Source of the DNA: Tetrahymena thermophila SB210
Lineage: Eukaryota > Ciliophora > Oligohymenophorea > Hymenostomatida > Tetrahymenidae
DNA length: 64,000 nt
Assembly (NCBI RefSeq): GCF_000189635.1
Contig: NW_002476425.1
Span: forward strand, 273,614 to 337,613
Reading direction: 5' to 3'
Shown one piece after another: positions 29,803 to 64,000 of the stretch. How positions within the stretch are numbered: the stretch's first letter is position 1; the number at the start of each line of letters is the position of its first letter. Under the pieces are notes generated by a model. That model saw nothing but the letters and a program-made list of their open reading frames with translations. It had not been told where the DNA came from and made no database searches. The translations under genes and the position numbers were made by a program.

Positions 29803-32106
29803 TCATGAATAATCTTTTTTCACCAGTTTCTTTTAATTTTTCAAAGCTACTGATTCTCTATCTTTACTCTTTTATTTCTCTGGATACTAAAATTTTATTT
29901 ACAAAAATTATATTTAAAAATAAAAATTTTTTTAGCTAATAATAAATTCATTATTTTATTTATTTACTTTTTAATTACATCTATTTGGTTCATCTTCTTA
30001 CTCACTTTCTTAGCTATCTTTATCATTCACAGACTCTTCATCTAATTTATTTTCATTATATGAATAGATCATGTAATTGCTTTCATCACTGTTTTAATCT
30101 TCGTCATAGCTATTTTAATCATCATTATCCGATTCTTCATTTTCTGAAGAGCTATCACTTTCTTATTAGGGAAAATACTATTTATAATATTTTCCATACT
30201 ATTATTTTCTATATTATTTCTATTTCTTTTTGTGATTCTTATATGTTTCATCTTTATTGGTATATGGCTACTAAAATGTATCAGTTGAATTATAAATAAA
30301 TCCATTTTTAAACATATCAATAGATAGTTTAATCCCTTCGGTTTACATTTTAAATAAAATCTAAGGAAGTCTAAATGTATTTAGTTTTTTAGTACGAAAA
30401 AGCATAACATCTTCTTCATATATTTCTTGCTCACAATTACAAGATGCAAAATTAATTGAATTTTAGATATTGAGTTGGTTAGAAAATATTATCTTACCTG
30501 AAGATAAACCATTTCGCTCATTATTTGAATTTAATTCGGTTTTAATTTCATCAAGATTAATTTTAATCAAATTATCAAATATCAAAACAGAATTTTAATT
30601 CAAAATATTTTTTAAATTTTTAACTGCATTTATTTTTTCTATTTTAAATAATTACTTTGCCTATGTCATATCATCTTTATGTAGAAGACCACATCCACAT
30701 TAGTAAAAAGTAAAATTCTCACAGAGGGTTTTGGGAACATAATCTTCTAAATCTTATAAAAATTGGGCTCTGCTTTCTGTTATCTCTTCATCTTCAAAAT
30801 TTTATTGGTTAACAATATCAAAAATAAATTTATCTATTTCTTCTTCATTTTTTGAGTTGTCAATATTTTTGATAAGTTTTGTCTAAATTTTAATATTTTT
30901 AAGACTATACACTTTACCACTAAAGTAATCTAATACAATCAAAGTGCCAATTAGTTCTAATGGGACATATAGAGGAAACCAGTAATAATTACCATCCGTC
31001 ACATATACTATATCTAGATTTCTTTTAAATAAGTAAACTTTTTTTAGTTCTTCTTTTTCATCTGGAATATTGTATCTCATTTTTACACATTTATTAAACA
31101 AATCTGCAGAATATTATTGCTAATCAATCTCTTTAGTCATATAACAAGCCATATTAAACATCTATGCTACTTTTTCATTATAATTCAATCCATCTATTTT
31201 GTAAATTAATTCTGTTCTAATGAATATCTTATTATTATCAAAATAAGCATTTCCTTCATGCTAAAGTTATTAGTCGAAAATTATGCAGCTGTTTTCTGAT
31301 ATTTTTTTGAATGAGATGTTTTCAATCGCTAAAGGAGGTTATTCGTTTTAAACTTCTTTGTTTCCTGTTAAGTAAATAAGCATAGTATATTTAGAGTACA
31401 ATCCTTATGATTTGTCTGCAAATGGAGTGTCATAATGAGATTTGAATTTTTTATCTCCTGGTGCGAAATTGTTTAGTCTAAATACATTATTGACCTTCAT
31501 AAATTATTTTTTGTCAAAAAAATTGCTCTTTTCAATCATTTCTGTTAAACAATAAGACAATTAATTTGAGTGAAAAATCAATCTTTTTCCTCCTCTCTGT
31601 GTAGCATTTAAAGGCTGTGTATAGTAATTCAACTTATCTAATAAAAGGAGATTTTCAGTTGATCCTTAGATAATAAATGTTTAAATTTTATCTGTAACTA
31701 TCTTGCTACTTTTTAACTTGAATTCTACATTACCAAAAAGGTGATCTAAGTTCAAAATATTTTCAAAATTATGATAAGAAAGATCATCAATATTAACAAA
31801 TATGACTGAATAATTGTTAATTTCGATAAAATTATTTTTATCAAGGAACTACTAAAGTAAAGAAGTCTCAATATATTTCATAACTTTCCTAGATTCTGTT
31901 GGGAATGGACTTACTTCAATATTTTATAATGTAAAGCTCTGAAGATCATCAGAAAATACTAAATCTTAATCCTCTAAATCCAAAGAATCGAATACTAAAT
32001 TTCGAGTATAATTCAACGCTTTCTATATTTTTTATTACTCAGAAAGATTGTTAAACTCCTGTTATTTTAAACTACTCATTCCAAATAAGTTTTGATTATC
32101 TTACAT
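29803..32106 (-). CDS. 2OG-Fe(II) oxygenase (prolyl-4-hydroxylase-like), tandem copy 1
   Basis: Exon 1 is 32106-29968 and exon 2 is 29886-29803, with an 81-nt intron; 740 aa. Start chosen at ATG 32106 because copy 3 lacks the next Met (32079). The core is a double-stranded beta-helix oxygenase: V-F-R-L-N-N-F-A-P-G-D-K-K-F, the iron ligands in S-H-Y-D (H224, D226), T-M-L-I-Y-L-T-G, distal histidine in L-Q-H-E-G-N (H283), and the 2-oxoglutarate arginine in F-I-R-T-E-L-I-Y (R297). All required residues are present, so an Fe(II)- and 2-oxoglutarate-dependent hydroxylase activity is likely; the substrate is unknown. Residues 1-150 and 330-600 match nothing I know. The tail is acidic and Ser-rich (repeated S-D-S-S-S-E-N-E-type blocks) and the last exon is basic. 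No signal peptide or membrane span, so probably cytosolic or nuclear. Confidence 0.85.
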
Positions 32107-32184
32107 TATTCTAATGATTTAATTTTTTATTAAACATTATTTAATTTATGCTTTTATGTTTATAGCAGTATTTATAGTTCAATT

Positions 32185-32203
32185 ATATCAGTTTTTCTGA
32201 TAT
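32185..32203. promoter_or_regulatory. Conserved inverted repeat upstream of oxygenase copy 1
   Basis: Perfect 7-bp inverted repeat ATATCAG-TTTTT-CTGATAT, 79 bp upstream of the proposed ATG. Present at the same place in all three copies while nearby sequence has diverged. Could be a protein-binding palindrome or a 5' hairpin. Confidence 0.5.
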
Positions 32204-32224
32204 TTTTTATTTTCTTTTTGAAAA

Positions 32225-32232
32225 GCGCCAAA
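32225..32232 (-). promoter_or_regulatory. E2F-like site upstream of oxygenase copy 1
   Basis: Reads TTTGGCGC on the coding strand, matching the eukaryotic E2F/DP consensus TTTSSCGC, within a conserved block GAAAAGCGCCAAAA on the plus strand. It is a rare C/G-rich patch in AT-rich DNA and lies 119 bp from the proposed start codon. Confidence 0.5.
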
Positions 32233-32874
32233 AAAAAAATTTCATCCACTTAAATAATAAAAAATAATTTTAGTTTTTCTTTTAATATTTTTGAAAAGTA
32301 TCAAAATATATTTATATACGTATTTACACTCAAATACGTGTAAGCAACCAAAATAGTATAATCAAATAAATAAATAACTACAATCTTAAGTTTGAAAATA
32401 AAATTTAAATTATTGATGAATGTAAAATATTTTTTTTGGATAAATTATTTGTAATAAATTAAATATGTCAATTAATAGAATTAAAATTTTCTATTTTGAT
32501 TTAAAATAGCTAATTATATCGATAGTAAAATTAAAAAGCCTCTTTATAATAATTAAATAGCTTTTATTAATATTTTGGTTTTAGTTATTAATCAAATTTT
32601 AATTTTATTTTAATTAGAATAAACTTTATGCATTTATTTTGATGATTATAAAAAATTCTAAAAAAATAAAAAAATTATTTTTTATTTAAAAAAAATATTT
32701 TTAAAATTATCATAATATAGGTCTTAAATAGTAAATTCTTTTATATATTAAAATTTGCATATTATAAAAATTAAAAATTAATTTGCTAAATGCTTTAGAT
32801 AGAAATTAGTCTGAGCCAAAATATAAATATAATTAATAAAACAAACTTAATATTTAAACTCAAGATATATTTTA

Positions 32875-35178
32875 TCACGAATAATCTTTAAACACCAGTT
32901 TCTTTTAATTTTTCAAAACTTCTGATTATTTATCTTTACACTTTTATTTCTCTGGATACTAAAATTTTATTTACAAAAAATTATTTTTAAAAATAAAAAA
33001 GTAATTAAGTTAATAAAACATTTATTTATTATTAAATTTACTTACTTTTTAATTACATCTATTTGGTTCATCTTCTTACTCACTTTCTTAGCTCTCTTTA
33101 TCATTCTCAGACTCATTTTCTAATTTATTTTCATTAAATGAGTAGATCATGTAATTGTTTTCATCTCCATCACTGTTTTAATCTTCATCATAGCTATATT
33201 AATTATTGTTATCAGATTCTTCATTTTCTGAAGAGCTATCACTTTCATATTATTTACCATATTCTTTTCTATATTTTTTTCTATAGTATTTCTCCATATT
33301 TTCCTGATTCTTGTAAGCTGCATCTTTATTGGTATATGGCTACTAAAAAGTCTCAGTTGAATAATAAATAAATCCATTTTTAAACATATCTATTGATAAT
33401 TTAATCCCTTCGGTTTACATTTTAAATAAAATCTAAGGGAGTCTAAATGTATTTAGTTTTTTAGTATGAAAAAGCATAACATATTCTCTACTTATATCTT
33501 GCTCACAATTACAGGATGCAAAATTAATTGAATTTTAGATATTTAGTTGGTTAGAAAATATTATCTTACCTGAAGATAAACCATTTCGCTCGTTATTGGA
33601 ATTTAATTCGATTTTAATTTCATCAAGATTAATTTTAATCAAATTATCAAGTATCAAAACAGAATTTTAATCCAATATATTTTTTAAATTTTTAACTGCA
33701 TTTATTTTTTCTCTGTAAAATAATTACTTTGCCTATGTCAAGGTATCTTCATATATAAGACCACATTCACATTTATAAAAAGTAAAATTCTCACAGAGGG
33801 TTTTTGGAACATAATCTTCTAAATCTTATAAAAATTGGGCTCTGCTTTCTGTTATCTCTTCATCTTCAAAATTTTATTGGTTAACAATATCAAAAATAAA
33901 TTTATCTATTTCTTCTTCATTTTTTGAGTTGTCAATATTTTTAATAAGTTTTGTCTAAATTTTAATATTTTTAAGACTATACACTTTTCCGCTAAAGTAA
34001 TCTAATACAATCAAAGTGCCAATTAATTTTAACGGGACATATAGAGGAAACCAGTAATAATTACCGTCCGTCACATAGGTTATGTCTAGATTTCTTTTCA
34101 ATAAGTAAACCTTTTTTAGTTCTTCTTTTTCATCTGGAATATTGTATCTCATTTTTACACATTTATTAAACAAATCTGCAGAATATTGTTGCTAATCAAT
34201 CTCTTTAGTCATATAACAAGCCATATTAAACATCTATGCTACTTTTTCATTATAATTCAATCCATCCATTTTGTAAATTAATTCTGTTCTAATGAATATC
34301 TTATTATTGTCAAAATAAGCATTTCCTTCATGCTAAAGTTATTAGTCGAAAATTATGCAGCTGTTTTCTGATATTTTTTTGAATGAGATGTTTTCAAAGG
34401 CTAAAGGAGGTTATTTGTTTTAAGCTTCTTTGTTTCCTGTTAAGTAAATAAGCATAGTATATTTAGAGTACAATCCTAATGATTTGTCTGCAAATGGAGT
34501 GTCATAATGAGATTTGAATTTTTTATCTCCTGGTGCGAAATTGTTTAGTCTAAATACATTATTGACCTTCATAAATTATTTTTTGTCAAAAAAATTACTC
34601 CTATTAATCATTTCTGTTAAACAATAAGACAATTAATTTGAGTGAAAAATCAATCTTTTTCCTCCTCTTTGTGTAGCATTTAAAGGCTGTGTATAGTAAT
34701 TCAACTTATCTAATAAAAGGAGATTTTCAGTTGATCCTTAGATAATAAATGTTTAAATTTTATCTGTAACTATCTTGCTACTTTTTAACTTGAATTCTAC
34801 ATGACCAAAAAGGTGATCTAAGTTCAAAATATTTTCAAAATTATGATAAGAAAGATCATCAATATTAACAAATATGACTGAATAATTATTAATTTCGATA
34901 AAATTATTTTTATCAAGGAACTACTAAAGTAAAGAAGTCTCAATATATTTCATAACTTTCCTAGACTCTGTTGGGAATGGACTTACTTCAATATTTTATA
35001 ATGTAAAGCTCTGAAGATCATCAGAAAATACTAAATCTTAATCCTCTAAAGCCAAAGAGTCAAATACTAAATTTCGAGTATAATTCAACGCTTTCTTTAT
35101 TTTTTATTACTCAGAAAGATTGTTAAACTCCTGTTATTTTAAACTACTCATTCCAAATAAGTTTTGATTATCTTACAT
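32875..35178 (-). CDS. 2OG-Fe(II) oxygenase, tandem copy 2
   Basis: Exon 1 is 35178-33046 and exon 2 is 32958-32875, with an 87-nt intron that has a full GTAAGT donor; 738 aa. It is very close to copy 1 through the catalytic core, with the same H-x-D, distal His and R-T-E-L-I-Y, and is intact. It differs mainly in the acidic C-terminal region (30-35 residues around 33290-33150), where short insertions and deletions accumulate. Start-to-start distance from copy 1 is 3072 bp, so the duplicated unit includes the promoter. Presumably the same chemistry as copy 1; divergence of the tail suggests relaxed constraint there rather than a new catalytic role. Confidence 0.85.
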
Positions 35179-35256
35179 TATTCAAATGATTTACTTTTTT
35201 ATTAATCAATATTTAATGAATGCTTTTATGTTATTAGAATTATTTATAGCTAAATT

Positions 35257-35275
35257 ATATCAGTTTTTCTGATAT
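35257..35275. promoter_or_regulatory. Conserved inverted repeat upstream of oxygenase copy 2
   Basis: Same ATATCAG-TTTTT-CTGATAT palindrome as in copies 1 and 3, 79 bp upstream of the proposed ATG. Confidence 0.5.
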
Positions 35276-35296
35276 TTTTTATTATCATTTTGAAAA

Positions 35297-35304
35297 GCGC
35301 CAAA
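35297..35304 (-). promoter_or_regulatory. E2F-like site upstream of oxygenase copy 2
   Basis: TTTGGCGC on the coding strand, 119 bp before the ATG, identical in spacing to copies 1 and 3. Confidence 0.5.
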
Positions 35305-36019
35305 ACAAAATTTACATTAATTTAAATAATAAAGGATAGTTTAATATAATATATTTGAAAATTATCAAAATAAATTTATATACTTTTATACTTTCAAATA
35401 AGTGTAAGTAACCAAAATAATATTAGTAAATAAAAAAAATCATAACTTTGAAAATAAAAATCAAATTATTCATGAATCTAAAATATTTTTTTTTTGGATA
35501 AATTATCTGTTATAAACTAAATATATAACTTAATAAAATTAAAATTTTCTATTTTGATTTAATATAGCTGATTCTATCTAAAGAAAAATAAAAAAACATT
35601 TTTATCATAATTAAATAGCTTTTATTCATATTTTGATTTTAGTTATTTATTAAATTTTAATTATAGATTAATTAGAATAAACTTTATGTATTTATTGCTA
35701 ATTAAGGTATTGAAATTTGAAAGCTAAGTAGCCTTCTTGCTTTTTTTATTTTAATTTGTCAGAGTTTATCTGGTAGATCTACCTGTGATTTTATTAAAAA
35801 GAAAGGCCTTTTAATTTTTTATGAAAAACTAATTTTTTTGCTTTAAAACATTCATATTACAGGTCTAAAAAAATAAAAAAGTCTTTTTAATATATGAGGT
35901 TTTACAGTATATATATTAATACATAAAATTACTAAATGCTATAGATAGAAATTAGTTTGAGCTAAAATATAATATAATTAATAAAATAAACTTAATGTTT
36001 AAACTCAAAATATATTTTA

Positions 36020-38334
36020 TCATGAATAATCTTTATACACCAGTTTCTTTTAATTTTTCAAAGCTTCTGATTATTTATCTTTACACTTTTATTTCTATGG
36101 ATACTAAAATTTTATTTACAAAAAGTTTATTTTAAAAATAAAAAATTAACTAAGTTAATGATACATTTATTTAATTTATTTACTTTTTAATTGCATCTAC
36201 TTGGCTCATCTTCTTGCTCACTTTCTTAGCTATGTTTATCATTCTCAGACTCTTTTTCTAATTTACCTTAATTATATGAGTAGATGATGTAATTGTTTTC
36301 AATACTATTTTAATCTTCATCACTGTTATTATCTTCATCACTGTTTTAATCTTCATCACTGTTTTAATCTTCGTCACTGTTATCATCTTCATCAAAGATA
36401 TTATAATCACTATTATCAGATTCTTCATTTTTTGAAGAGTTATCAATTTCTTATTTGAACTTATTCTTGTAAACTGCAGCTTTATTTGTATATGGCTACT
36501 AAAAAGTCTCAGTTGAATTATAAATAAATCCATTTTTAAACATATCAATAGATAATTTAATACCTTCTGTTTACATTTCAAATAAAATTTAAGGAAGTCT
36601 GAATGTATTCAATTTTTTATTATGAAAAAGGATAACATCTTCTTCATCGATTTCTTGCTCACAGTTACAAGATGCAAAATTAATTGAATTTTTGATATTT
36701 AGTTGGTTAGAGAATATTATCTTACCTGAAGATAAATCATTTTGCTAATTATTAGAATCTAATTTAATTTTAATTTCATCGATATTAATTTTAATCAAAT
36801 TATCAAATATCAAAACAGAATTTTAATTCAGAATTTTTTTTAAATTTTAAACTGCATTTTTTTTCTCTATCTTAAATAATTACTTTGCCTATGTAATGTT
36901 ATCATCGTCTCTCAGACCACATCTACATTTGTAAAAAGTAAAATTCTCACATAGGGTTTTGGGAACATAATCCTCTAAATCTTATAAAAATTGGGCTCTG
37001 CTTTCTGTTATCTCTTCATCTTCAAAATTTTATTGGTTAACAATATCAAAAATAAATCTATCTATTTCTTCTTCATTTTTTGAGTTGTCAATGTTTTTAA
37101 TTATTTTTGACTAAATTTTAATATTTTTAAGATTGTACACTTTTCCGTTAAAGTAATCTAAAACAATTAAAGTGCCAATTAATTCTAATGGAACATATAG
37201 AGGAAACCAGTAATAATTACCGTCTGTCACATATACAATTTCTAGATTCCTTTTCAATAAGTAAACCTTTTTTATTTCTTCTTTTTCATCTAGATTACTG
37301 TATCTCATTTTTACACATTTATTAAACAAATCTGCAGAATATTGTTGCTAATCAATATCTTTAGTCATATAACAAGCCATATTAAACATCTATGCTACTT
37401 TTTCATTATAATTCAATCCATCTATTTTGTAAATTAATTCTGTTCTAATGAATATCTTATTATTGTCAAAATAAGCATTTCCTTCATGCTAAAGTTATTA
37501 GTCGAAAATTATGCAGCTGTTTTCTGATATTTTTTAGAATGAGATGTTTTCAATCGCTAAAGGAGGTTATTCGTTTTAAACTTTTTTGTTTCCTGTTAAG
37601 TAAATAAGCATAGTATATTTAGAGTATAATCCTTATGATATGTCTGCAAAAGGAGTGTCATAATGAGATTTGAATTTTTTATCTCCTGGAGCAAAGTTGT
37701 TTAGTCTAAACACATTATTAATCTTTATAAATTCTTTTTTATCAAAAAAATTACTCTTTTCAATCATTTCTGTTAAACAATAAGACAATTAATTTGAGTG
37801 AAAAATTAATCTTTTTCCTCCTCTCTATGTAGCATTTAAAGGTTATGTATAGTAATTTAACTTATCTAATAAAAGAAGATTTTCAGTTGATCCTTAGATA
37901 ATGAATGTTTAAATTTTGTCTGTAACTATCTTGCTACTTTTTAACTTGAATTCTACTTGATCAAAAAGGTGATCTAAGTTCAAAATATTTTCAAAATTAT
38001 GATAAGAAAGATCGTCAATATTAACAAATATGACTGAATAATTGTTAATTTCGATAAAATTATTTTTATCAAGGAACTACTAAAGTAAAGAAGTCTCAAT
38101 ATATTTCATTACTTTCCTAGACTCTGTTGGGAATGGACTTACTTCAATATTTTATAATGTAAAGCTCTGAAGATCATCAGAAAATACTAAATCTTAATCT
38201 TCTAAATCCAAAGAATCAAATACTAAATTTCGAGTATAATTCAACGCTTTCTATATTTTTTATTGCTCAGAAAGATTGTTAAACTCCAGTTATTTTAAAT
38301 TACTCAATCCACATAAGTTTTGATTATCTTACAT
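36020..38334 (-). CDS. 2OG-Fe(II) oxygenase, tandem copy 3 (most diverged)
   Basis: Exon 1 is 38334-36184 and exon 2 is 36103-36020, with an 80-nt intron; 744 aa and intact. Catalytic residues H-Y-D, L-Q-H-E-G and R-T-E-L-I-Y are kept. Compared with copies 1 and 2 it lacks the second Met near the N-terminus, which fixes the upstream ATG as the likely start for all three. It also carries an expanded acidic tail: four near-identical 18-nt units encoding N-S-D-E-D-[QN] at about 36310-36395. Overall divergence is greater than between copies 1 and 2, so it probably split off first. Substrate unknown. Confidence 0.83.
36310..36395 (-). repeat. 18-bp coding minisatellite in the acidic tail of copy 3
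   Basis: Units of the form AACAGTGATGAAGATTAA on the coding strand, four in tandem with one GAT/TAA interchange. They add Asp/Glu/Ser/Gln residues without breaking the frame. Copies 1 and 2 have a single unit at this place. Confidence 0.75.
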
Positions 38335-38412
38335 TATTCTAATGATTTACTTTTTTATTAATCATTATATAATGAATGCTTTTATGTTTATAGAATTATT
38401 TATAGCTAAATT

Positions 38413-38431
38413 ATATCAGTTTTTCTGATAT
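38413..38431. promoter_or_regulatory. Conserved inverted repeat upstream of oxygenase copy 3
   Basis: ATATCAG-TTTTT-CTGATAT, same position and sequence as in the other copies. Confidence 0.5.
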
Positions 38432-38452
38432 TTTTTATTATCTTTTTGAAAA

Positions 38453-38460
38453 GCGCCAAA
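38453..38460 (-). promoter_or_regulatory. E2F-like site upstream of oxygenase copy 3
   Basis: TTTGGCGC on the coding strand, 119 bp before the ATG. Retained although the surrounding upstream sequence of copy 3 has diverged. Confidence 0.5.
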
Positions 38461-39553: not shown

Positions 39554-41677
39554 ATGCAAAGGATAGGGAAAGAATTCGTTAATTAATCAGTGTATAAATA
39601 TCCTCAAACAAAACGATTATTAGAATGGCTTACTAAAGACGGATATTTTAAACTGCGTATGCATAAATCTATTGAATTAGATAAAGTTTATGATGATAAG
39701 TGGAAAGTAGATAAAGGATTCGGTTTAAGAGCAGCATAAAATATAAATGCAAATGAAGAAATATTTTTAGTTTCTACAGAGAATTGCATAACTGGTCTTG
39801 AGCTGATTGACTGCGATAGAATTAAGGCCTTCGAAATCAATAAGACTGTTAGCATGATTGCATCTAAATATTATGAAAAGAATTTACCATAGCTCTACTA
39901 CACATAAAATATCTTAAAAATAATCTGCTAAATATTTGCTCACAGCTCAGGTGATTAAATGAAAATGTATCCGTTTGCAAACACCCTTTTAGAGCATTAT
40001 AATAACCAGACCACTACAAAAAATCCTCTTTTTTGGGATAAAAACGCTATTAAAGGTAAAATCATGCTTAATAATTTTCAAAATCAAATATATTAAATCT
40101 GCATATCTTCTGCTTTTTTTGATAAAGATCTTCAGATCCAATATTTCTGCAATAAATAATCAATCAATCAATCAAACAAGCAATTTAATTTAGAAAAATG
40201 AAAGTAACTTTAATATTAATTTAAGAGTGAAAATTAATTAATAAAATAATTACTATAAAATAATAGTTAAGATTTGCATTTGTAATTAATAAAATTATCT
40301 ATCATATTATTAAAAATAAATAAAAACTTCAGGGATAGTTAGTTAGTTAGATATAAAACGAATTAAAGTTCAAACAAATAAATTTTTGATGAAAAAGAAA
40401 AATGTTTTTTTGAAAATCAAATTAACATTTAATATTCTATTAAAAAATAACATCACAACAACAGATAGATATTTTAAATATGAAATATTAAAAGATAGCA
40501 TCAAAACAACATATATTTTAAATATGAAATTATATTTTCAGGACTTAAGCAAAATTTAAAGAGAAACAATTAATTGAAAGGATTTTTATAAATGTCAAAG
40601 CAAGATATTGATTGATTGATTAAGATAACTTTTTTAATTAAGTAAACTTTATTTTAACTGTTTAATAGGTATTTACTCATCCAATTTGGCTAGCATTATT
40701 AGTTCAACTTAGTCTTAATTTGTCAGCATGAACGAAGATTTGCTCTAAAATAGAATGTTTGGATTTAACTTAAGTAAATTTATTGAAATGATGTCAGTAG
40801 TTAGAAGCAGAAATTTAAACTTTTGTCCTGAATAGCCAAAATTTTTTGATATAAATTCTGTCGTTATTATGTCACCAGTTGTAGATTGGATAAATCATTC
40901 GTTTGATCCAAATTGTAAATTGACAGGTGCTTATTATCAGCATGAAACAGAGAGTTTTGTGGTTGTCAAGGCTGCAAAAGATATCAAACAAGGAGAAGAA
41001 CTCACAGTAAATTATGGAAATATGAATAATATGGATTATTTGATGCGTTATGGATTTGTAAACTAATCAAATCCTCACAATGAACTCTCTTTGACTTTAA
41101 ACTTTGACGATTATCTTGAATACACATCCTAATTGTTTGATTTCAAGCAAAAAATTTTCAAAACCCAAGAAGATTTCTCACTAGATAGGTAAAATAAAGC
41201 AAAATTCTTTTGTTTAAATTCATAGAAAGTATCGTAAAAGCTATAATAATCCTTTAAATTTCTAATAGATTTATTTTGTTCGAGAACAGAATCAACAAAA
41301 ACTTACTTAGAAGTTTAAGAATATACTTTTTAAAGAATGAAGATTTATTGACAAATCCAGAAATAGCTTCATATAGATATAAAGATTTTGATAAGTAAAT
41401 CAGTACTGAAAATGAGCTGATTATTTGCAAATTCATGATAGAAACTTTGAAAAAAGAGTTAGAAAAGTACTAAAAAGCTAGAATAAATACATTAGACATG
41501 AATTAACTCATGCATCCAAATAAAAAGGACTAAATAATTAATCTTGATTCACATGAGGATTTGATCTATGTTTAAAATTAAAACTATCGTAACATGCTCC
41601 ATATATGCATAGATGAGCAAACAAACATTTAAAAAAATATTAAATTCTTTGAAAAACAACTACAAAATCTTGTTTGA
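39554..41677 (+). CDS. SET-domain protein lysine methyltransferase (SETD6/LSMT-like)
   Basis: Exons 39554-40055, 40669-41188 and 41269-41677; 476 aa. The N-terminal SET motif is G-F-G-L-R-A at residues 55-60. The catalytic core has D-W-I-N-H-S at 240-245, followed by P-N-C, then G-E-E-L-x-V-N-Y-G ending at 284, the usual NHS and NYG signatures that bind S-adenosylmethionine. A long inserted region between the two halves, and about 160 helical residues after the core, fit the Rubisco-LSMT substrate-binding fold, so the target is more likely a non-histone protein or ribosomal lysine than histone H3. The first intron (613 nt) is unusually long for this region and contains CAAT tetranucleotide repeats near 40160; the second is 80 nt. 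Catalytic residues appear intact. Confidence 0.85.
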
Positions 41678-63631: not shown

Positions 63632-64000
63632 GGGGTTGGGGTTGGGGTTGGGGTTGGGGTTGGGGTTGGGGTTGGGGTTGGGGTTGGGGGTCGGGGTTGG
63701 GGTTGGGGTTGGGGTTGGGGTTGGGGTTGGGGTTGGGGTTGGGGTTGGGGTTGGGGTTGGGGTTGGGGTTGGGGTTGGGGTTGGGGTTGGGGTTGGGGTT
63801 GGGGTTGGGGTTGGGGTTGGGGTTGGGGTTGGGGTTGGGGTTGGGGTTGGGGTTGGGGTTGGGGTTGGGGTTGGGGTTGGGGTTGGGGTTGGGGTTGGGG
63901 TTGGGGTTGGGGTTGGGGTTGGGGTTGGGGTTGGGGTTGGGGTTGGGGTTGGGGTTGGGGTTGGGGTTGGGGTTGGGGTTGGGGTTGGGGTTGGGGTTGG
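63632..64000 (+). repeat. Telomere, (TTGGGG)n
   Basis: Begins at CGGGGTT and continues to the end of the window as GGGGTT units, the Tetrahymena-type telomeric repeat. Its orientation makes this the right end of a chromosome. One variant unit, GGGGGTC, occurs at 63686-63692. At least 369 bp are present and the array is cut by the window edge. Confidence 0.98.

Follow-up and report, generated by a model that had tools for sequence, protein, structure and literature searches.

Three genes arranged in tandem on the minus strand of a 64,000-nucleotide stretch of the Tetrahymena thermophila SB210 genome (contig NW_002476425.1, positions 273,614 to 337,613; the whole stretch is called the window here) appear to encode members of an undescribed family of 2-oxoglutarate (2OG)-Fe(II) dioxygenases, and the reading that we favour, with moderate confidence, is that these are full-length, working genes which in the ciliate are controlled through an E2F-type site and a palindrome upstream of each start codon. 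Judged from the alignments, the family is laid out as an N-terminal module, a core like that of PF13640 and a second conserved region, C-terminal to it; most of the members seen also have an acidic tail. A literature search in one open-licence library, covering titles and the starts of abstracts, found no description of the family or of the gene pair that it forms in bacteria (see below), a result that speaks for that library and implies nothing about the literature elsewhere.

An initial annotation of the window had recognised three intact 2OG-Fe(II) oxygenase genes, and this identification has held: H224, D226, H283 and R297 (numbering of copy 1 throughout) are kept in 5/5 ciliate sequences, i.e., in the triplet and in two further paralogues that were found by a genome search, C126 (60% identical) and C174 (55%), at loci L007 and L008. 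In an alignment of 44 sequences (39 bacterial and 5 ciliate, with a 97-residue fragment, L151, dropped here and from the tree), the HxD...H iron ligands H224, D226 and H283 and the 2OG arginine R297 are invariant in all 44, as are N116, R171-G172-G173 and H179 in the N-terminal part and C556 and N601 in the C-terminal part. When the family was compared by hhalign with a Variovorax 2OG-Fe(II) oxygenase (WP_083944152.1, which itself passes the PF13640 cut-off with 32.8 against 27 bits), residues 205-306 aligned with a probability of 96.4 (E 1.1e-9), and with the ciliate sequences alone the probability was 91.2 (E 1e-6). The excised cores of C126 and C174 matched PF13640 directly (E 3.2e-4 and 1.8e-3; 22.0 and 19.6 bits, below the 27-bit cut-off), though a search of the ciliate genome with the PF13640 family gave no match. 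The flanking domains had been called unrecognised, and they are so in the sense that two further conserved regions surround the core and the scanned oxygenases, there or elsewhere, did not reach the cut-off of any Pfam or NCBIfam model.

Other searches with the proteins were unproductive. Nothing convincing was found for the three full-length frames in Pfam, NCBIfam and PHROGs or for copy 1 in the PDB; profiles A4 and A7 retrieved only unrelated PDB chains (E 0.4 or worse) and profile A2 none; there was no match in phage records at E<=1, and a profile made from the ciliate sequences only had no relatives among 281 viral-contig and 73 genome-contig stretches. An EAL domain (PF00563) in the C-terminal region was considered and rejected, with weak matches in 2/5 ciliate sequences (best E 1.5e-3; copy 3 at 14.4 bits, the cut-off being 31.3) and in 1/25 of the wider family (E 0.014).

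The relatives that define the family are bacterial. A tblastn search of plasmid records with the C126 core matched 8 records. Four are Streptomyces or Embleya proteins with 34-36% identity to the core across 91-98% of its 293 residues (E 2e-45 to 2e-50), and their genes, which encode 659-672 aa, are relatives over the full length; the other four are Variovorax 2OG-Fe(II) oxygenases (E 2e-3). Scanning genomes with a mixed profile yielded 40 loci among 103 candidate stretches, of which Actinomycetota account for 37, Myxococcota for two and Planctomycetota for one; the number of loci is a lower bound, since the scan sees two short peptide patterns only, and it includes two loci from one genome and one gene that was also a plasmid match. 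Homology extends over the full length at 39/40 loci (23-27% identity to the ciliate proteins), the other being a fragment, and inspection by eye placed the acidic tail in most, not all, of the bacterial members examined. In the reverse search, the Plesiocystis protein found the same five loci in the ciliate genome and no other among the best candidates scored. The tree unites the ciliate sequences in one clade (100/100), which a very long branch of 4.8 changes per site separates from the midpoint root, with long branches flagged and the rooting serving the drawing only. T. thermophila was the one eukaryote in the search, and these sequences speak neither for nor against horizontal transfer, in whichever direction.

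That the three genes of the window are working genes is suggested by their coding sequences. Read with genetic code 6, in which in-frame TAA and TAG stand for glutamine (54, 43 and 43 such codons in copies 1, 2 and 3), the unspliced frames run from 29803 to 32106 (767 aa), 32875 to 35178 (767 aa) and 36058 to 38334 (758 aa). Near the 3′ end of every copy a short GTAA...TTTTAG intron is predicted, removal of which would give proteins of 740, 738 and 744 aa that all terminate in KDYS and would move the end of copy 3 from 36058 to 36020. The prediction is supported by copy 3, because its exon 2 was matched separately by tblastn, in another frame (L006). Aligned over 626 residues, copy 2 shares 94% and copy 3 92% identity with copy 1. 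The ratio of nonsynonymous to synonymous change (dN/dS) is 0.17-0.27 for residues 1-600 and 0.8-1.0 past residue 600, where the intron was included in the calculation; by these rates the acidic, serine-rich tail is evolving fast.

Upstream of the genes, the two elements that had been described at fixed distances are present as reported: TTTGGCGC lies 119 bp before the ATG in all three copies, counted from its nearest base to the A (118 bases between), and the palindrome ATATCAGAAAAACTGATAT has its nearest base 79 bp from the same A. The first fits the E2F consensus TTTSSCGC in 3/3 copies, and a scan of both strands of the 64-kb window revealed no TTTSSCGC sites beyond these three; the second was listed, as an exact word, at 3 places in the genome, all in this array. 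The better evidence that such elements have been under selection appears to come from the two older paralogues, because at synonymous sites they differ from the triplet almost to saturation (dS 0.9-1.9) and yet each retains a word of one of the two elements, while by inspection little else in the promoters can be aligned. The promoters were scanned for the most improbable word held in common with the invariant columns of the triplet at a similar position, the elements named by the initial annotation not being supplied. The top shared word in C174 was TTGGCGC at -131, the core of the E2F-like site, whose score was reached by 0/1000 shuffles and 7/1500 null stretches, and in C126 it was TATCAGAAAA, the left arm of the palindrome, at -102 (2/1000 shuffles and 12/1500 null stretches). 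Both words lie 6 bp farther out than in the triplet. The null stretches were sampled from 1888, every one of which lies at a locus retrieved because it contained TTTGGCGC, GGCGC..TTCAAA or a word resembling the palindrome. From the retained words, both upstream elements are probably functional, a conclusion that we hold with moderate confidence.

The triplet itself had been the basis of the claim that the elements look selected, and there the argument did not survive, the triplet-internal evidence for selection being weak by the base counts. Identical spacing is uninformative by itself, since the copies are recent and the upstream block lacks insertions and deletions. The upstream sequence of copy 3, described as diverged apart from the elements, differs mainly by a deletion, with about -250 to -161 absent and homology returning from -281 to -400 in blocks of 30-32 columns, 19 to 28 of them identical to copy 1 or 2. 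When conservation over the site was set against that of its neighbours, the comparison for which the initial annotation had called, the 126 columns from -126 to -1 contained 15 variable ones, and the invariance of TTTGGCGC alone was expected by chance (P 0.35), as were the two longest invariant runs (P 0.22). The probability of zero variable columns was 0.07 for the palindrome, 0.02 for TTTGGCGC and palindrome together and 0.005 when the adjoining TTCAAA was added, all of these being values for elements that were named after the fact.

These figures fit a rival explanation, to which we would give a rather small chance, namely that the elements are passive passengers of recent copies that were homogenised by gene conversion and that the E2F likeness is coincidental. 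Pairwise differences in the -126 to -1 block (14, 10 and 6 of 126 bases, or 5-11%) are about as large as those at synonymous positions across codons 1-60 (pS 0.06-0.09). Upstream, copies 2 and 3 are the closest pair (120/126 identical), whereas in the coding region copies 1 and 2 are closest, and synonymous divergence varies from 0 to 0.32 per 50-codon block, with the lowest values at codons 251-350 and 51-100 (window positions 29803-38334); because of this unevenness and the change of closest pair, we read the pattern as patchy gene conversion among the copies. What weighs against the passenger explanation is the occurrence of TTGGCGC in one near-saturated paralogue, the word being rare (695 occurrences in the 101 Mb genome, both strands), and of TATCAGAAAA in the other.

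The E2F name itself comes from the match to the consensus and from that only. As background, PMC8216455 cites an earlier in-silico study that found 714 T. thermophila genes with TTTSSCGC, and three further papers list E2FL1 and DPL2 as meiotic factors (PMC8282021), discuss E2FL1 together with APRO1 (PMC8849441) and report a conjugation-specific E2F (PMC2636879). Genome-wide, TTTGGCGC occurs 265 times and its reversed word 58 times, an excess that was not used as proof of function, the reversed word having two CpG against one and no more than 18/50 of the TTTGGCGC sites examined having low-GC, promoter-like surroundings. Five frames in the neighbourhood of another three TTTGGCGC sites were scanned with Pfam, which gave one RFC1-like frame (replication factor C; E 2.4e-7, 30.5 bits against a cut-off of 34.9, a single example), one RING-type frame (E 2.3e-5, below the curated cut-off) and three frames with no Pfam match. 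Replication factor C is a classical type of S-phase gene. The RFC1-like match, to an AAA lid domain, lies in a frame that begins about 1 kb from its site (G000:C9:808421, L017), the site being upstream. The idea that an ATCAG-type palindrome generally accompanies E2F sites was dropped: ATCAGA followed 3/18 of the low-GC sites (control 3%), and of these sites two belong to a single repeat array in which no gene is evident. In that array (G000:C5:98062-98486; L011, L012), an AT-rich repeat, two TTTGGCGC sites stand 417 bp apart with TTAAAATTAATCAGACTGATT after each.

A second, still more doubtful alternative is that a composite element of E2F and CHR (cell-cycle genes homology region) type, bound by a DREAM/MuvB-like complex, controls the genes. 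The CHR hexamer is TTTGAA, and its reverse, TTCAAA, follows TTTGGCGC after 2 bp in 3/3 copies, within the invariant stretch for which the P value of 0.005 was obtained. A hybrid E2F/CHR-like motif has, moreover, been reported at Anqa1-bound Tetrahymena genes (PMC8216455). The CHR half was nevertheless rejected as a general feature, since TTCAAA occurred within 1-6 bases after 0/50 other TTTGGCGC sites (50 of the 265, taken in contig order) and at the site is kept in neither paralogue. The composite pattern was counted 19 times, with three of these in the present array, and its reversal 4 times, a surplus that the excess of TTTGGCGC itself about explains; with two mismatches the counts are 1179 and 375. 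The orientation, finally, is opposite to that of the vertebrate arrangement of CHR with the cell-cycle-dependent element (CDE).

At most of the bacterial loci, the oxygenase does not stand by itself. A homologous gene lies directly upstream on the same strand at 36/40 loci (blastp linkage >80 bits; loci L112-L151, with a partner and oxygenase pair exemplified by L108:6976-9902), and in 35 loci its end and the start of the oxygenase gene share exactly 4 nt when starts are chosen by script, with a gap of 98 nt in Plesiocystis; the RefSeq annotation of the pair in Streptomyces sp. 3211 has the same 4-nt overlap. The partner was not found at L145, where about 1 kb of upstream DNA was examined, or at L148, L150 and L151. 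The leucine-rich repeat (LRR) family LRR_6 was above cut-off in 6/6 partners tested (four of the 36 and two from plasmids, one of which is the L115 gene), and one partner also resembles TIGR02996 and STM4015, both below their cut-offs. Since in bacteria a repeat protein is produced along with the enzyme, the reaction would most likely be a 2OG- and iron-dependent hydroxylation of a protein, and the family members are, on this genomic context, probably protein hydroxylases. As the operon suggests, the enzyme may dock through the repeat protein or act on it, which would make that protein an adaptor or a substrate. In the ciliate, expression would be set by an E2F/DP-type factor bound at TTTGGCGC and by another factor bound at the palindrome, and its timing would probably be S phase or conjugation. 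The most extended version, a repeat-protein-guided hydroxylase of bacterial type that in Actinomycetota is coupled to its LRR protein and in the ciliate lineage has five copies, no adjoining LRR gene, an E2F-type promoter and a role in the cell cycle or conjugation, is a tentative proposal that we consider unlikely to be right in all its parts.

Several observations weigh against the favoured reading of an undescribed dioxygenase family under E2F-type and palindrome control. On the side of the enzyme, the excised cores of the three window copies have no PF13640 match, full-length proteins gave 0/3, 0/3 and 0/25 matches to PF13640 at E<=1, and no 2OG oxygenase was among the PDB matches of profiles A2, A4 and A7 or of single proteins. 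The AlphaFold models, made before the deep alignment, reached a predicted local distance difference test (pLDDT) score of 27 and 33 (one of them for residues 1-626), which leaves the fold unproven. No match to the bacterial LRR partner was found in the ciliate genome in a search run without a positive control. On the side of the promoters, the null stretches, coming from motif-fetched loci, are not a clean background, and both retained words had already been seen before the scan region and offsets were set. C126 has a degenerate TTTTTGCAC at -127, in the place of the E2F-like site, and the C174 promoter lacks the palindrome, so that neither paralogue keeps both elements.

Table 1. Features of the oxygenase array, in window positions
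Feature	Position	Strand	Remark
Copy 1 exon 1	29968..32106	-	start codon 32106
Copy 1 intron, 81 nt, GTAAATAA..AATTTTAG	29887..29967	-	predicted
Copy 1 exon 2	29803..29886	-	protein end KKLVKKDYS
Copy 1 N-terminal module and 2OG oxygenase core, residues 60-352	31051..31929	-	H224, D226, H283, R297
Copy 1 conserved C-terminal region, residues 345-620	30247..31074	-	NFASC and LSIDMFKNG motifs
Copy 1 E2F-like TTTGGCGC	32225..32232	-	119 bp before start codon
Copy 1 TTCAAA, 2 bp after E2F-like site	32217..32222	-	significance not supported
Copy 1 palindrome ATATCAGAAAAACTGATAT	32185..32203	-	
Copy 2 exon 1	33046..35178	-	start codon 35178
Copy 2 intron, 87 nt	32959..33045	-	predicted
Copy 2 exon 2	32875..32958	-	
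Copy 2 E2F-like TTTGGCGC	35297..35304	-	119 bp before start codon
Copy 2 TTCAAA adjoining E2F-like site	35289..35294	-	significance not supported
Copy 2 palindrome ATATCAGAAAAACTGATAT	35257..35275	-	
Copy 3 exon 1	36184..38334	-	start codon 38334
Copy 3 intron, 80 nt	36104..36183	-	predicted; removal restores exon-2 frame and the ending of copies 1 and 2
Copy 3 exon 2	36020..36103	-	reaches 38 bases past unspliced frame
Copy 3 E2F-like TTTGGCGC	38453..38460	-	119 bp before start codon
Copy 3 TTCAAA adjoining E2F-like site	38445..38450	-	significance not supported
Copy 3 palindrome ATATCAGAAAAACTGATAT	38413..38431	-	

Adjoining the array on the plus strand (39554-41351), the frame at 40728-41351 carries a SET domain (PF00856, E 1.1e-10), and the frame at 39554-40201, which has no Pfam match, may be a further exon of the same gene. 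TTGGGG repeats occupy the last 365 bp of the window (63636-64000); to judge from them, the window end is a chromosome end of the Tetrahymena-like macronuclear kind.

What was a triplicated gene of obscure kind now has its place in a delimited family with about 40 bacterial members and five in the ciliate. The tightly coupled LRR-type partner offers a direct route to the substrate in bacteria. In the ciliate, the retention of promoter elements can be read across the paralogue set against near-saturated synonymous change, which makes the E2F-like site testable in a genetic model.

Among known enzymes, OGFOD1, Tpa1p and Ofd1 invite comparison, and the least probable of the alternatives, one that we regard as very unlikely, is that the family consists of ribosomal prolyl hydroxylases of this kind. 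There is a likeness in the broad layout of catalytic domain, second domain, acidic stretch and partner protein: in OGFOD1 and Tpa1p the N-terminal domain is catalytic, the C-terminal one is non-catalytic and of the same double-stranded beta-helix (DSBH) fold, and there are disordered acidic stretches, while Ofd1 has the partner Nro1 and Tpa1p the partner Ett1 (PMC4396695). The family was not filed with them because no sequence relation was detected; no OGFOD1 or Tpa1p chain was among the PDB matches at E<=10 (profiles A2, A4 and A7), despite PDB entries for both (same paper), and no Ofd1-type Pfam match was found in the C-terminal region of the five members. For a scuticociliate, 2OG-Fe(II) oxygenases acquired from bacteria have been reported (PMC4614350); those have other best matches (Aeromonas, Kordia) and provide no evidence for the present family. 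With the T. thermophila E2F target genes counted above, the array shares TTTGGCGC before the start codon of all three copies, which by this sequence word are candidate E2F targets. With PF13640 (2OG-FeII_Oxy_3) and WP_083944152.1 the likeness lies in the HxD, the distal H and the arginine, in register over about 100 residues, whereas the members of the present family are about 610-745 aa long, have two more conserved regions and score below the Pfam cut-off. The closest counterparts are WP_079408618.1, a hypothetical protein encoded on plasmid p3211-2 of Streptomyces sp. 3211, and the 40 bacterial loci, all but one of them full-length homologues with invariant ligands and mostly an acidic tail, which differ from the ciliate genes in that the oxygenase directly follows an LRR-type gene (where tested), mostly with the 4-nt overlap.

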